A DNA stretch of 64,000 nt. It comes from Actinokineospora bangkokensis. GTDB lineage: Bacteria; Actinomycetota; Actinomycetes; Mycobacteriales; Pseudonocardiaceae. Position 1 is the stretch's first letter; each line of letters opens with the position of its first letter. A program made the translations under genes and the position numbers. The notes under the pieces are model-generated. The model did not search any database, was not told where the DNA came from, and saw nothing but the letters and a program-made list of their open reading frames with translations. Shown piece after piece: positions 49,496 to 54,866 of the stretch. Location of the stretch: the NCBI RefSeq assembly GCF_001940455.1, contig NZ_MKQR01000025.1, positions 1-64,000 of the forward strand, read 5' to 3'.

Positions 49496-49567
49496 GCCCC
49501 CGTAGCTCAGGGGATAGAGCACCGCCCTCCGGAGGCGGGAGCGCAGGTTCGAATCCTGCCGGGGGCA
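49496..49567 (+). tRNA. tRNA-Arg (anticodon CCG)
   Basis: Seventy-two bases, no encoded CCA. Acceptor GCCCCCG/CGGGGGC, D arm with GCTCAGGGGATAGAGC, anticodon stem CCGCC/GGCGG with loop CTCCGGA (anticodon CCG, codon CGG), T arm GCAGGTTCGAATCCTGC. A TAGTCT -10-like box lies 20 bases upstream. The 3' part is the left repeat of the adjacent insert. Confidence 0.96.
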
Positions 49568-49568
49568 C
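49520..49568 (+). repeat. left attachment-site repeat (attL-like) in tRNA-Arg
   Basis: A 49-base stretch from the anticodon stem to one base past the discriminator, identical to 51533-51581. This is the pattern left by site-specific integration into a tRNA 3' end, with gene function kept. Confidence 0.9.
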
Positions 49569-49574
49569 TTGTCA

Positions 49575-49615
49575 CGCGAAGCCCGCCAGCTGCACCGCAG
49601 CTGGCGGGCTTCGCG
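49575..49615 (+). terminator. terminator after tRNA-Arg
   Basis: Perfect 18-bp stem (CGCGAAGCCCGCCAGCTG with its complement), five-base loop, then CATTT. It is the first sequence inside the insert. Confidence 0.85.
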
Positions 49616-49705
49616 CATTTCAGCCTCAGGCGCGGTGGCAGATCAGCTCGACCAGAGGTAGACTGAATCAATACGGGGAAGACTGATTCAAGACTTGGGG
49701 GGACC

Positions 49706-50041
49706 ATGACTGCGGAGCTAGGAGGGCTCGTCGACCGCGCGCGTAGGGCGGCGGGACTGAGCCAACGCGATCTGGCCGCGGCAGCCGGGATATCTCAGTC
49801 GACCTTGTCGAGGATCATCTCGGGAGACCGCGAGGCAAAGGTGCCTGAAGTAGTTGCCTTGGCACTCGCGACTGGCCACACCGTGGCCCAGTTGACTGGG
49901 AACACAGCAGTGGCTGATCGCGTGCAGTGCGCGGCAAGGTCGACCAGCAACTCGGCCATGGAGCAATTGCGTGGATCTCTGCTGCACTTCTTGCAGCTCA
50001 ACGATTATCTGGACGACCAAGCGATCCCCGCCACGATCTGA
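49706..50041 (+). CDS. XRE-family helix-turn-helix regulator
   Basis: A 111-residue protein with an HTH at residues 5-55 (LSQRDLAAAAGISQSTLSRI) and a helical C-terminal part. It is the first gene of a three-gene operon and shares one base with the next start (TGATG). Expected to repress its own operon and act as the cleavable regulator or antitoxin partner of the ImmA/IrrE peptidase. Codon use is clearly less GC-biased than in flanking genes, pointing to transfer. Confidence 0.88.
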   Translation: MTAELGGLVDRARRAAGLSQRDLAAAAGISQSTLSRIISGDREAKVPEVVALALATGHTVAQLTGNTAVADRVQCAARSTSNSAMEQLRGSLLHFLQLNDYLDDQAIPATI

Positions 50042-50901
50042 TGACAAGAGAAGAAGAAGGACGCGCCGCAGCGACAAGGTTCCGCCATGAGCACAACCTG
50101 GGCGTCCTGCCCTTGGGCGATCTCATCGCATTAGTCGAGTTGACGACGGGCGTCGATGTCGCCGTGCTCGATACCGATCCCGATGAGCACGGCCTGACAA
50201 TGCGCGATCCTGCCAGCGGCGCTGTCTTCATCGGGGTGGCCCGCACCACGCACCCGATGCGGCAGAGGAGCACGCTCGCGCATGAATTGGCGCACGTCCT
50301 GTTCGAGGACTGGACAGAATGGAGCGATCGGAGCCGAGATCGCAGCCTTGAAGAAGTGCGGGCGGACGCCTTCGCTCGTCATTTGCTAATTCCAGTGGAA
50401 GGTGTTGTCACGATCGTCGCGGGCAGGACCGCCACCGACGAAGCTGTGCTGTCTGAGGTAGTCCAGCGTTTCCTGGTGTCACCGCAACTGGCGGCGATCG
50501 CCCTTCACCAAGCAGGGCAGATTGACTTCGCGACCAAGCAACGATGGATGGCCGTGACTACCCCTCAGTTGGCCATTCGCTTCGGATGGATCGATCAATA
50601 CCGCTCACTCCAGGAACTGTCGAACAAGCGCCGCGCGCCTCAACGTCTGCTGGCACGCGCCATCCGAGGCTATGCCGAGGGCATCCTACCCGCGCAGGCT
50701 ATCGCGACCCTGTTGGAGGTTCCCGTCGCGCAGGTTGAGACCGACCTCCACGACGCGGGCATCGTGCCGGTCATCCCGCCTGCGACGTGGACCGGGGCAG
50801 CCGAGCTGGAGACCCCCCAGGTCGATATGGCCGCCTTGGATGTCGATCTGGGCGGCCCCTGCGAACCTGAGAGCACAGCCCCTCAGAAAGACTCGGGATG
50901 A
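50041..50901 (+). CDS. ImmA/IrrE-family metallopeptidase
   Basis: A 286-residue zinc peptidase of the ImmA/IrrE (COG2856) family. H81-E82-L83-A84-H85 is the zinc motif in RSTLAHELAHVLFEDW, and EVRADAFARHLLIP from about residue 105 gives the third ligand. The C-terminal 110 residues add a second HTH-like helical region (RAIRGYAEGILPAQAIATL). ImmA cleaves phage repressors and IrrE cleaves the DdrO repressor; here the XRE protein is the likely target. The stop overlaps the next gene (ATGA). Confidence 0.9.
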   Translation: MTREEEGRAAATRFRHEHNLGVLPLGDLIALVELTTGVDVAVLDTDPDEHGLTMRDPASGAVFIGVARTTHPMRQRSTLAHELAHVLFEDWTEWSDRSRDRSLEEVRADAFARHLLIPVEGVVTIVAGRTATDEAVLSEVVQRFLVSPQLAAIALHQAGQIDFATKQRWMAVTTPQLAIRFGWIDQYRSLQELSNKRRAPQRLLARAIRGYAEGILPAQAIATLLEVPVAQVETDLHDAGIVPVIPPATWTGAAELETPQVDMAALDVDLGGPCEPESTAPQKDSG

Positions 50902-51530
50902 CAGAGCGTCCGATAATCGACGCGGGACCCGGCCTGAACTTCCTTTCCATCGGAAAGGAGCGACTTCTCATCGAGGTTCTAGGGCCTCTCAGCACCCCAG
51001 AGACCGTCCGAGATGAGATGATGCGCAAAGCAGAGCGCGACTCCCGATTCCAGCGTGTCGGTGCAACGTTGCCGAAGTTGGTCCCGAGGTGGCTCGAAGT
51101 GCTCTCAGACAACCGGACGTCAGAACTCGACGCAGTGGTGAGCCGGATGACGCAAGTACCTATGGAGACGCGGCAACGCAACTCCAAGGACTTGGGCGAA
51201 ACGATGGTAGTCGCGCACGCGGTGGTGGCGGCTGAAGCAGGCAAGGAAGTGACAGTGTTGATGGACGACGGTCAGGGAATAAAGATGGCCGTCCTCGAGA
51301 TTCGACGTATTGAGCGTCTGCGCGCAGGAGGCCGACCGGTTGGGAACGTCCGACTGGTCAAGACAGAAACGGTCCTCCAGCGAGCAGCAGGCGGTCCGCA
51401 CATCCCGGATCGGGGCGCGATGCGCTCGATCTACACCCAGAAGCGCGGGCTGGACGACGGCCTGCCGCCGATCGACAGCACATATCTCCTGTCCCCGGCC
51501 ACGTGGTCGACTCGAGTGACTTCTGAGTAG
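50898..51530 (+). CDS. PIN-like domain protein, putative toxin or effector
   Basis: A 210-residue protein. Residues 5-130 fit a PIN-like nuclease fold by spaced acids: D8 in IIDAGPGLNF, E35/E40 in PETVRDE, D98/E101 in KDLGET, and D123/D124 in VLMDDGQG. The C-terminal 70 residues are basic (GLDDGLPPIDS near the end). No signal peptide. Its start overlaps the peptidase stop. Role as an RNase effector held in check by the upstream genes is inference. The stop lies two bases before the right repeat. Confidence 0.75.
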   Translation: MTERPIIDAGPGLNFLSIGKERLLIEVLGPLSTPETVRDEMMRKAERDSRFQRVGATLPKLVPRWLEVLSDNRTSELDAVVSRMTQVPMETRQRNSKDLGETMVVAHAVVAAEAGKEVTVLMDDGQGIKMAVLEIRRIERLRAGGRPVGNVRLVKTETVLQRAAGGPHIPDRGAMRSIYTQKRGLDDGLPPIDSTYLLSPATWSTRVTSE

Positions 51531-51532
51531 TT

Positions 51533-51581
51533 CACCGCCCTCCGGAGGCGGGAGCGCAGGTTCGAATCCTGCCGGGGGCAC
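51533..51581 (+). repeat. right attachment-site repeat (attR-like), tRNA-Arg 3' fragment
   Basis: Identical 49-base copy of the tRNA-Arg 3' part. It lacks the acceptor 5' strand and D arm, so it is not a functional tRNA. Marks the right end of the 1.96-kb insert. Confidence 0.9.
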
Positions 51582-51586
51582 CACCA

Positions 51587-51625
51587 GACCAGGTCGACCA
51601 CCCACCACGGGTGGTCGACCTGGTC
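51587..51625 (+). terminator. terminator after the right repeat (original tRNA terminator)
   Basis: Perfect 17-bp stem (GACCAGGTCGACCACCC with its complement), five-base loop, then TTT. Before integration this would have directly followed tRNA-Arg. Confidence 0.85.
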
Positions 51626-51854
51626 TTTGTGCTGTCCGGGGGCCGCCGGGACGGGCCGGGTGGGCGGTGTTGGGCAATCACAGACCTGCCCGTGAACACA
51701 ACTGTTCGAGCGTCCCGTGCCCGTTCGGTGGTCACGGGCTCCAGCGCACGTCGAGCGCGGTTCGAGCGATCTTCGAGCGGGTGCGCCTGCCGCCGGGGCT
51801 CGTGGGGGTGAGCGGGCGGGCACGTGGTGGACAGGGATTCCTCCCGCGGGCGGG

Positions 51855-54004: not shown

Positions 54005-54096
54005 GGGGGACTCCATGGGGGGTGCTTGCTTGTGCGGGTGGGGTTCCTGCTTGCTCAGGTTCTAAGCAGAGCAAAAGAAGCGGGATTTTGTTGGCG

Positions 54097-54244
54097 TGCC
54101 CGGGTGGGTGGTTCTGCTTGACAGGGGCCCCTGCGGCGATCACGTGCTCGGGGTGGGGAAAAGGTGAGGCCTGCGGCCCCACCCCCCGGCCGTGGGTAGC
54201 ACATGATCGCCTTCCCCTGTCAAGCACAACCACCCACCCGGGCA
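54097..54244 (+). repeat. long inverted repeat B, copy 2
   Basis: Left arm 54097-54148 and right arm 54198-54244 are imperfect inverted repeats: outer TGCCCGGGTGGGTGGTT, middle TGCTTGACAGGGG, inner GGCGATCAYGTGCT. The left arm carries a CCCCTG insertion. The centre has GGGGAAAAGG at the same place as copy 1 read on the minus strand, so the two copies are in opposite orientation. Confidence 0.85.
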
Positions 54245-54338
54245 GACCCGTAGCCGGGCCGCCGAATCCGTTGTGCGCCCGTTCTTTGGGGAGCGAGTTG
54301 GTGCGGTGGCTGGGTGCTCAGGTTGAGCAGCGTGAGGG

Positions 54339-54386: not shown

Positions 54387-54602
54387 TTACTGGGGGAGGA
54401 TGTAGGTGGGGGCCCGGACGATGGACTGGATGAGGCCGAAGACCGGGATGCCCAGGGGGGCGAAGGTGTAGATGTCGTTGAGCTGGCTGGTGTCGGGCTG
54501 GTCGACGATCACCGGGTCGGCGGTGGCGGTGGTGGCGAGGCCGGTGAGGGTGGTGGCCGCGAGGGTCGCGGCGATGAGGCCTCGGGTGATGGTGGTGCGC
54601 AT
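54387..54602 (-). CDS. small secreted protein 2
   Basis: A 71-residue protein: a clear signal peptide (TRGLIAATLAATTLTGLATT, cleavage near TATA-DP) and a mature part of about 42 residues with no cysteines. It ends with PVFGLIQSIVRAPTYILPQ. The motif PVFGLI-x-x-I is shared with the gene 24 bases upstream, so the two are paralogues. GGAGGAACC ribosome-binding site. Function unknown. Confidence 0.7.
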   Translation of the reverse strand: MRTTITRGLIAATLAATTLTGLATTATADPVIVDQPDTSQLNDIYTFAPLGIPVFGLIQSIVRAPTYILPQ

Positions 54603-54626
54603 GGTGGTTCCTCCTGTGGGGGTGGG

Positions 54627-54866
54627 TCAGCCGCCGATGAAGCGGATGAGGCCGAAGACGGGGGCGAGGGCGCCCGGGACGAGGGTGGTGGGGGCGAGCA
54701 GGCCGCCGAGGTCCACGCCGGGGAGGACCCAGATGGCGGGGGTGTCCTGGGTGGTCACGGGGGCGGTGGTCTCGGCGGTGGTGTCGGCGGCGGCGATGCC
54801 TGCCGCGCCGGTGGTGAGGGCGGCGGTGGCGATTCCCGCCACGAGCGCGCGCGAGAGGGTCTTCAC
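54627..54866 (-). CDS. small secreted protein 1
   Basis: A 79-residue protein with a signal peptide (LVAGIATAALTTGAAGIAAA) and a mature part of about 50 residues, Thr-rich then hydrophobic, ending APVFGLIRFIGG. No cysteines. Paired with the next gene. It could coat the cell surface or be a short-lived secreted peptide; no family is recognised. Confidence 0.7.
   Translation of the reverse strand: MKTLSRALVAGIATAALTTGAAGIAAADTTAETTAPVTTQDTPAIWVLPGVDLGGLLAPTTLVPGALAPVFGLIRFIGG

Follow-up and report, generated by a model that had tools for sequence, protein, structure and literature searches.

In the 64,000 nucleotides of Actinokineospora bangkokensis DNA considered here (positions 1 to 64,000 of contig NZ_MKQR01000025.1, assembly GCF_001940455.1; hereafter the window), an insert at a tRNA-Arg (CCG) gene appears, on balance, to be a mobile and self-regulated three-gene toxin-antitoxin or defence module, in which a PIN protein would act as toxin, an ImmA/IrrE (M78) zinc peptidase as antitoxin through its C-terminal tail, and an XRE protein as repressor. 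A first-pass annotation of this DNA had described three overlapping genes encoding a helix-turn-helix (HTH) regulator, a zinc peptidase with the motif HELAH and a PIN-like protein, all of which is borne out. The genes and the peptidase tail are the following:

49706..50041, + strand: XRE-family HTH regulator, 111 amino acids (Pfam HTH_3, 7.8e-13)
50041..50901, + strand: ImmA/IrrE (M78) zinc peptidase, 286 amino acids, HExxH at residues 81-85 plus E105
50644-50766, + strand: UPF0175-like tail of the peptidase (residues 202-242), by sequence comparison a probable antitoxin domain
50898..51530, + strand: PIN-fold protein resembling the DUF3368 type, 210 amino acids, by its predicted structure a probable RNase toxin

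The XRE and peptidase genes overlap by TGATG and the peptidase and PIN genes by ATGA. In a collection holding one genome per species, 124 pattern matches yielded 87 relatives, the best 80 of which were kept and represent 78 distinct loci, nearly all in named actinomycetes and one in a metagenome-assembled genome named Acidobacteriaceae. The order XRE-peptidase-PIN is kept in 75 of these 78 loci, the exceptions being L037, without XRE and peptidase, and L071 and L074, which begin near a contig end; XRE and peptidase are fused into one frame in 4/76 loci and the ATGA overlap between peptidase and PIN recurs in 60/75, with starts picked by script (window included in both counts). The pairwise distances of the three genes agree across 65 complete loci, with r between 0.81 and 0.90 where the maxima under permutation are 0.27 to 0.32, and the flanks are mostly unrelated, stretches of at least 500 nt being shared by only 7 pairs among 70 upstream flanks and 5 pairs among 72 downstream ones. 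Such conservation of the triad, together with the 49-bp exact repeat that bounds the insert in the window, is far beyond chance. Presence is patchy, with the module, whole or partial, in 5 of 16 Actinokineospora genomes (window's included) and, in a scan of 394 genomes of the class, PIN in 17 (E<=1e-10), a close peptidase in 18 (E<=3e-79) and both in 15; PIN only was seen in two genomes (G221, and as a piece in G298) and peptidase only in three (G046, G274, G369), a contig end remaining a possible cause of the missing partner in G274, G369 and G298. Besides, the PIN gene occurs in 9 of 72,556 plasmid records, two of the nine covering only 31% of the gene, and on one viral contig, at its edge, with zero matches in 50,697 phage records. 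The first-pass annotation had named a third gene commonly found alone, with a house-keeping role, as the observation that would overturn it; this is rejected as a rule, with one clear case in the 78 loci, namely the intact orphan PIN gene at L037:6001-6615, near which XRE, peptidase and palindrome are all absent. A search of the genomes of L037 and L071, run without an internal positive control, did not find the peptidase.

Regarding the third protein, structure prediction gives the PIN fold that the first-pass annotation had expected. Among the acidic residues it had singled out, D8, E40, D98, E101 and D123 are invariant in two alignments, one of 32 proteins (32/32) out of 120 listed from the 927 found, the other of the window and 28 of the 78 locus relatives (29/29), while E35 (31/32 and 25/29) and D124 (30/32 and 26/29) vary; alignment members here, as for the peptidase (window plus 43/75 relatives) and XRE (window plus 30/75), were hand-picked, mostly without broken or odd frames. 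From their order along the fold, the conserved acids would be placed in the active site. Comparison by hhalign with DUF3368-type PINs gave 61.4% with five PINs, 85.8% once the Rubrobacter type was added and 93.6% with the fused type as well, and in the printed alignments D8, E40, E101 and D123 stand opposite matching acids, D98 being unmatched. Some relatives carry a precomputed PF11848.14 label. The family counts 927 proteins at E<=0.001.

The peptidase belongs to M78, as PF06114 is matched by 44/44 aligned proteins and H81, E82, H85 and E105, the first three of which lie in HELAH (residues 81-85), are invariant in 44/44. Its structural model is closest to CapP and PprI, and in PADLOC it is matched by the capP model (2.3e-13) and by RmrA models (best 9.7e-13), the latter matching the HTH protein and the peptidase of the window separately; an NCBIfam model for spr1629-type antitoxins matches it weakly (4.6e-4). 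The tail is what points to an antitoxin role. UPF0175 (COG2886) has been predicted to be a family of HTH antitoxins that counter PIN toxins (PMC2701414, PMC6929052). Pfam UPF0175 (PF03683) is matched at E<=1 by 27/44 aligned peptidases (best 1.3e-4), a Rubrobacter counterpart exceeds the family cut-off with 30.6 bits, and two further homologues (P0159 and P0160) match at 0.0024 and 0.003. By hhalign, the triad tail was matched to the Rubrobacter-type tail (profile of 35/39 proteins) at 95.4% (E 2e-8) and to the fused tail at 95.8% (E 8.2e-9), and all tails pooled to stand-alone UPF0175 at 94.4% (E 8.7e-8), controls against the XRE HTH or the peptidase domain reaching at most 2.2%.

Gene neighbourhoods give the same association. 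A UPF0175 search (E<=1e-6) in 198 genomes of the phylum returned seven matches, four of which adjoin a DUF3368 PIN gene and two of which, of the Rubrobacter type, are tails of M78 peptidases with a PIN-like gene behind, the neighbourhood of the seventh (G562) lying outside the count; in a parallel DUF3368 search, 5/5 matches adjoin a UPF0175 gene, and 33/39 homologues of the Rubrobacter protein bear both precomputed Pfam labels, M78 and UPF0175. The next-closest peptidases of the class are eight fused HTH-M78 proteins with a similar C-terminal stretch, and a PIN-like gene follows in six of them; of the other two, L219 has no PIN next to it and L222 only a remnant. This L222 protein (G000:C28:389710-390384) is encoded in the window's own genome, which therefore holds another M78 peptidase besides that of the triad, fused to its HTH, similar in its tail and with a damaged PIN remnant after it. 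In other words, a tail homologous by profile to UPF0175 lies beside a DUF3368-like PIN gene in the triad, and the pairing of peptidase tail and PIN recurs in two further peptidase lineages, the Rubrobacter form and the fused HTH-peptidase form. Since the UPF0175-like domain is on the peptidase, the peptidase, rather than XRE, is the likelier toxin-holding partner.

Upstream of XRE, two further features suggest how the operon would be controlled:

49659..49664, + strand: TAGACT, probable -10 box of the promoter of XRE; most relatives have TANACT
49664..49690, no strand: inverted repeat TGAATCA-N13-TGATTCA, probable operator of XRE, which touches the -10 box

The palindrome TGAATCA-N11-13-TGATTCA is perfect in 71/76 loci and a one-base variant of it is found in the other five (window included). 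The bases before it are mostly TANAC (T 59, A 59, A 49 and C 56 of 71); adding the first T of the repeat gives TANACT, a -10 box, so that the palindrome would lie over this box and likely over the start site. Among the 16 Actinokineospora genomes, it occurs exactly once in each of the five with a PIN match, including G005, where the match is a short piece, and G013, where the gene is broken, and in 0/11 others; XRE is thus very likely a regulator of its own operon and, within Actinokineospora, of no other gene. A conserved palindrome at the promoter is what autoregulation in a type II toxin-antitoxin system would lead one to look for, the regulation itself being predicted from sequence. The C-terminal part of XRE is also conserved beyond its HTH.

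The pattern of decay fits as well. The PIN gene alone is broken, by frameshift or stop, in 8 of 75 scorable loci and the peptidase gene alone in 0/75, both being damaged in one locus (L076); with gene length as weight, the bias towards breakage of PIN only has a binomial p of about 0.001. Locating the loci via PIN should not have enriched for broken copies of it, and since the peptidase gene is the longer one, sequencing errors should strike it at least as often. Toxin lost and antitoxin kept is what is predicted of toxin-antitoxin pairs.

As to the insert itself, the following features bound it:

49496..49568, + strand: tRNA-Arg (CCG), attachment site (ARAGORN, Rfam)
49520-49568, + strand: left direct-repeat copy, the 3' 49 bp of the tRNA-Arg gene (repeat search)
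51533..51581, + strand: right direct-repeat copy of the tRNA-Arg 3' end, at the far end of the insert (repeat search)
49575..49615, + strand: 19-bp perfect inverted repeat inside the insert, directly 3' of the tRNA, probable terminator
51586..51626, + strand: 18-bp perfect inverted repeat after the right copy, probable original terminator of the tRNA

The insertion at tRNA-Arg put forward in the first-pass annotation is upheld, the 49-bp repeat being perfect and its copies lying 2,013 bp apart from start to start, which is the insert size. GC content is 62.3% in the insert against 74.8% and 73.6% in its flanks, the 2 kb of lowest GC content in the window (scanned in 250-bp steps) begin at 49501, and, in agreement with the codon use noted earlier as less GC-rich, three flanking genes have a GC content at third codon positions of 0.96-0.98, the triad one of 0.70-0.72. 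The three genes fill 49706-51530 on one strand and are the sole cargo as far as genes recognised in the insert go; none is an integrase, so that the att-bounded DNA does not qualify as an autonomous element. The perfect hairpin behind each copy of the repeat is what one would expect of an element arriving with a tRNA 3' end and a terminator of its own. Within Actinokineospora, the DNA right of the same tRNA differs from genome to genome, and in one congener (G012:C1:4342324-4526597) 46 bp of the tRNA-Arg(CCG) 3' end recur exactly at a distance of about 184 kb from the gene; variable DNA and distant copy together mark the site as a likely hot spot of integration. No exact empty tRNA-Arg(CCG) site was found among the congeners compared. 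The distant copy in G012 may mark a large integrated element. To the right of the same tRNA-Arg, another congener (L142, G013:C126) has some 7-8 kb of other DNA, also lower in GC, and open reading frames (ORFs) in it resemble, by eye, QueE/QueD-type deazaguanine genes.

Beyond the window, a tRNA location is not a general property of the module: the search called for by the first-pass annotation finds the triad in order, as given above, and most of the 78 loci are without a tRNA call by ARAGORN. The triad lies between copies of a tRNA 3' end in the window and in L034 (tRNA-Pro, 23 bp, 3.4 kb), and probably also in L012, judging from a 20-bp exact repeat spaced by 2.6 kb. The L012 repeat, called by neither ARAGORN nor Rfam, is presumably a tRNA-Lys 3' half, which it resembles by eye. 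A 27-bp exact (longer imperfect) non-tRNA direct repeat frames a 2.0-kb triad stretch at L032:4624 and 6627, and the repeats of L010, L047 and L052 look, by eye, like duplicated coding sequence; overall, repeats of at least 20 bp within 1.5 kb occur in 7/75 loci (window included) as against 0.2% of 1,500 mismatched flank pairs. The tyrosine-integrase motif was found in 1/79 loci and in neither L034 nor L012, serine recombinases falling outside this motif search; an ORF of L034 resembles, by eye, what would presumably be a transposase. Such inserts without an integrase could be remnants of larger elements or be mobilised in trans. Of note, an ORF with a tyrosine-recombinase-like motif (by eye) lies at L221:41-901, near a fused HTH-M78 peptidase and a PIN-like gene.

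Taken as a working scheme, the PIN protein would be the toxin, an RNase of DUF3368/VapC type according to its modelled fold, and the peptidase protein the antitoxin, whose C-terminal UPF0175-like domain would bind and block it. XRE would keep the operon low from the one palindrome over the -10 box, and PIN, made just after the peptidase, would then be bound by the peptidase tail. A stress signal such as single-stranded DNA, by analogy with ImmA, PprI and CapP, probably activates the peptidase, which in turn probably cuts XRE and raises expression; single-stranded DNA is the activation signal of PprI (PMC10904395). The toxin would probably be freed on a shape change, self-cleavage or degradation of the peptidase protein, this step being the least certain. 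In effect, this would be a VapB-type antitoxin in which a protease sits between the DNA-binding half and the toxin-binding half.

The wiring of the first-pass annotation, shared with Makarova, Wolf and Koonin (2009), differs in that XRE itself would be the antitoxin or repressor, its cleavage by the peptidase alone freeing or switching on the PIN RNase. ImmA/ImmR offers a precedent for it besides the 2009 proposal (PMC2701414), the palindrome sits on the XRE promoter, the C-terminal part of XRE is conserved beyond the HTH, and the peptidase fold is nearest to CapP and to PprI, which cuts the XRE-type repressor DdrO (PMC10904395). However, the UPF0175-like tail is on the peptidase and absent from XRE, the RosmerTA antitoxins are ImmA-type proteins (PMC10440598), and a cut of XRE would derepress all three genes, yielding antitoxin along with toxin, so that it need not alone release the latter; on this evidence such a wiring is rather unlikely. 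From the protease-gated module first proposed, the PIN fold, the kept metal site, the conserved probable operator and the co-travel of the genes are retained, and XRE gives way to the peptidase as likelier partner of the toxin. A role outside toxicity, in which PIN would trim a specific RNA and the peptidase relay a stress signal, draws on the strong conservation of PIN (identity to the window protein averaging 0.566 across 64 relatives), on the processing enzymes Rrp44, Utp24 and Nob1 among the structural matches of its model and on the intact PIN frame without partners in L037, but patchy presence, plasmid copies, preferential PIN breakage and peptidase-only genomes fit a toxin better and render it very improbable.

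Several observations do weigh against the peptidase as tail-bearing antitoxin of a PIN toxin, mostly through the assignment of the two domains. The window tail scores 13.8 bits against a Pfam UPF0175 cut-off of 27.9, hence UPF0175-like and not a member of the family; Pfam UPF0175 matches 0/5 fused HTH-M78 proteins scanned singly; eCIS_core, a hardly relevant Pfam family, also matches 21/44 peptidases (best 0.0096); and the triad tail alone reaches only 63.6% (E 6.7e-5) against stand-alone UPF0175, the assignment resting mainly on profile-profile comparison via intermediates. Likewise, the PIN model has no PDB match in Foldseek at E<=0.001, Pfam-A DUF3368 (PF11848) matches 0/32 and 0/29 PIN members, hence DUF3368-like and not of the family, and hhalign of PIN gives 0.1% with the Rubrobacter-type pair alone and 1.2% with the fused-type set alone, both at control level. 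PIN genes without peptidase occur (L037, G221 and the piece in G298), and outside Actinokineospora the palindrome is not upheld as a strict mark of the module: in the 394 genomes of the class it is found in 21 (a reversed control in 4), of which 11 are among the 17 PIN genomes, leaving six PIN genomes without a perfect copy and ten carriers without a PIN match. Among these ten, G046 retains XRE and peptidase along with the palindrome, the spacer is the 11-base one in five, and the other four may be chance. Finally, the tail, an HTH-like three-helix unit, could bind DNA instead, as a second operator contact or co-repressor, with either XRE or the peptidase domain holding PIN. This is quite improbable, as the 110-bp stretches upstream of XRE hold a single conserved palindrome and the stand-alone UPF0175 antitoxins of L162 and L163 carry an apparent separate N-terminal DNA-binding half, which would leave the UPF0175 half for toxin binding. 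That N-terminal half we take to be a ribbon-helix-helix.

Beyond the peptidase-held toxin of this insert, a wider family of protease-antitoxins can be put forward tentatively, in which an ImmA/IrrE peptidase with a UPF0175-type tail would both hold a PIN RNase and act as the sensor of a stress that is probably DNA damage or phage DNA, in at least three lineages (split triad, Rubrobacter and fused), the split form possibly spreading, with no integrase of its own, in cassettes of about 2 to 3.4 kb that insert at tRNA-type att sites. Apart from the module, up to about 280 bp at 54048-54323 of the window are repeated in the genome, with at least 17 further copies of 85-95% identity among the matches listed; this stretch, probably a dispersed repeat, adjoins two small secreted-looking ORFs at 54387-54866.

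CapP cuts the XRE-type repressor CapH, and the pairs ImmR/ImmA, DdrO/PprI and CapH/CapP control an integrative and conjugative element, DNA-repair genes or a cyclic-oligonucleotide-based antiphage signalling (CBASS) operon. With ImmR/ImmA (PMC2701414) and DdrO/PprI (PMC10904395), as with CapH/CapP, the module has in common an XRE-type regulator and an M78 peptidase, but it has one operator per module-bearing congener genome and a PIN gene as third member. With the pairs of UPF0175 (COG2886) and PIN (DUF3368) it shares a UPF0175-like domain just upstream of a DUF3368-like PIN gene, with the difference that here this domain is a metallopeptidase tail and the DNA-binding part is the XRE protein. 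In RipA/RipB of Streptococcus pneumoniae, RipB, suggested to be the antitoxin, combines XRE and an ImmA-like domain, whereas the target is a replication clamp according to the title, and the accessible text mentions no PIN protein (PMC12795458). The PADLOC candidate defence PIN protein PDC-S70, a weak match of the window PIN (7.6e-5), is single-gene and mostly archaeal, and experimental validation is not mentioned in the accessible text (PMC12988326).

Closer still is RosmerTA (RmrA/RmrT), since NetFlax in 2023 identified ImmA proteins as its antitoxins (node D25), with PIN-like partners noted (PMC10440598). The likeness, drawn on the RmrA side from genes and profile matches, would be that of an ImmA-type protease protein as antitoxin, often with an N-terminal HTH, whereas the HTH is here a separate gene, save for the few fused loci, and HTH-peptidase-PIN is the prevailing order where 58% of D25 systems have the toxin first (PMC10440598). 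The nearest precedent is the Xre-COG2856-PIN three-component toxin-antitoxin system predicted in 2009, with XRE HTH, COG2856 (ImmA/IrrE) peptidase and PIN nuclease in one operon as here and with the same idea of a protease cutting the repressor, its accessible text mentioning neither a UPF0175 domain on the peptidase nor a conserved operator (PMC2701414). According to a 2019 paper, the XRE-COG2856 family lacked experimental characterisation, and no description of a UPF0175 tail on an ImmA peptidase was found in the accessible text of the PMC literature, in which two papers mention UPF0175 and one DUF3368 and outside which subscription papers mostly lie. While peptidase-regulator-toxin operons have been predicted since 2009, the relation of protease to toxin has long been open; a separable antitoxin-like tail reduces this question to a simple truncation test, the single palindrome of each module-bearing congener genome offers a clean reporter for the trigger of the switch and, the family being large, the answer would cover many actinomycetes. 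The three-component XRE-peptidase-PIN idea is thus already known since 2009; what appears to be new is the UPF0175 tail on the peptidase, and along with it the palindrome and the 2-kb form bounded by att repeats.

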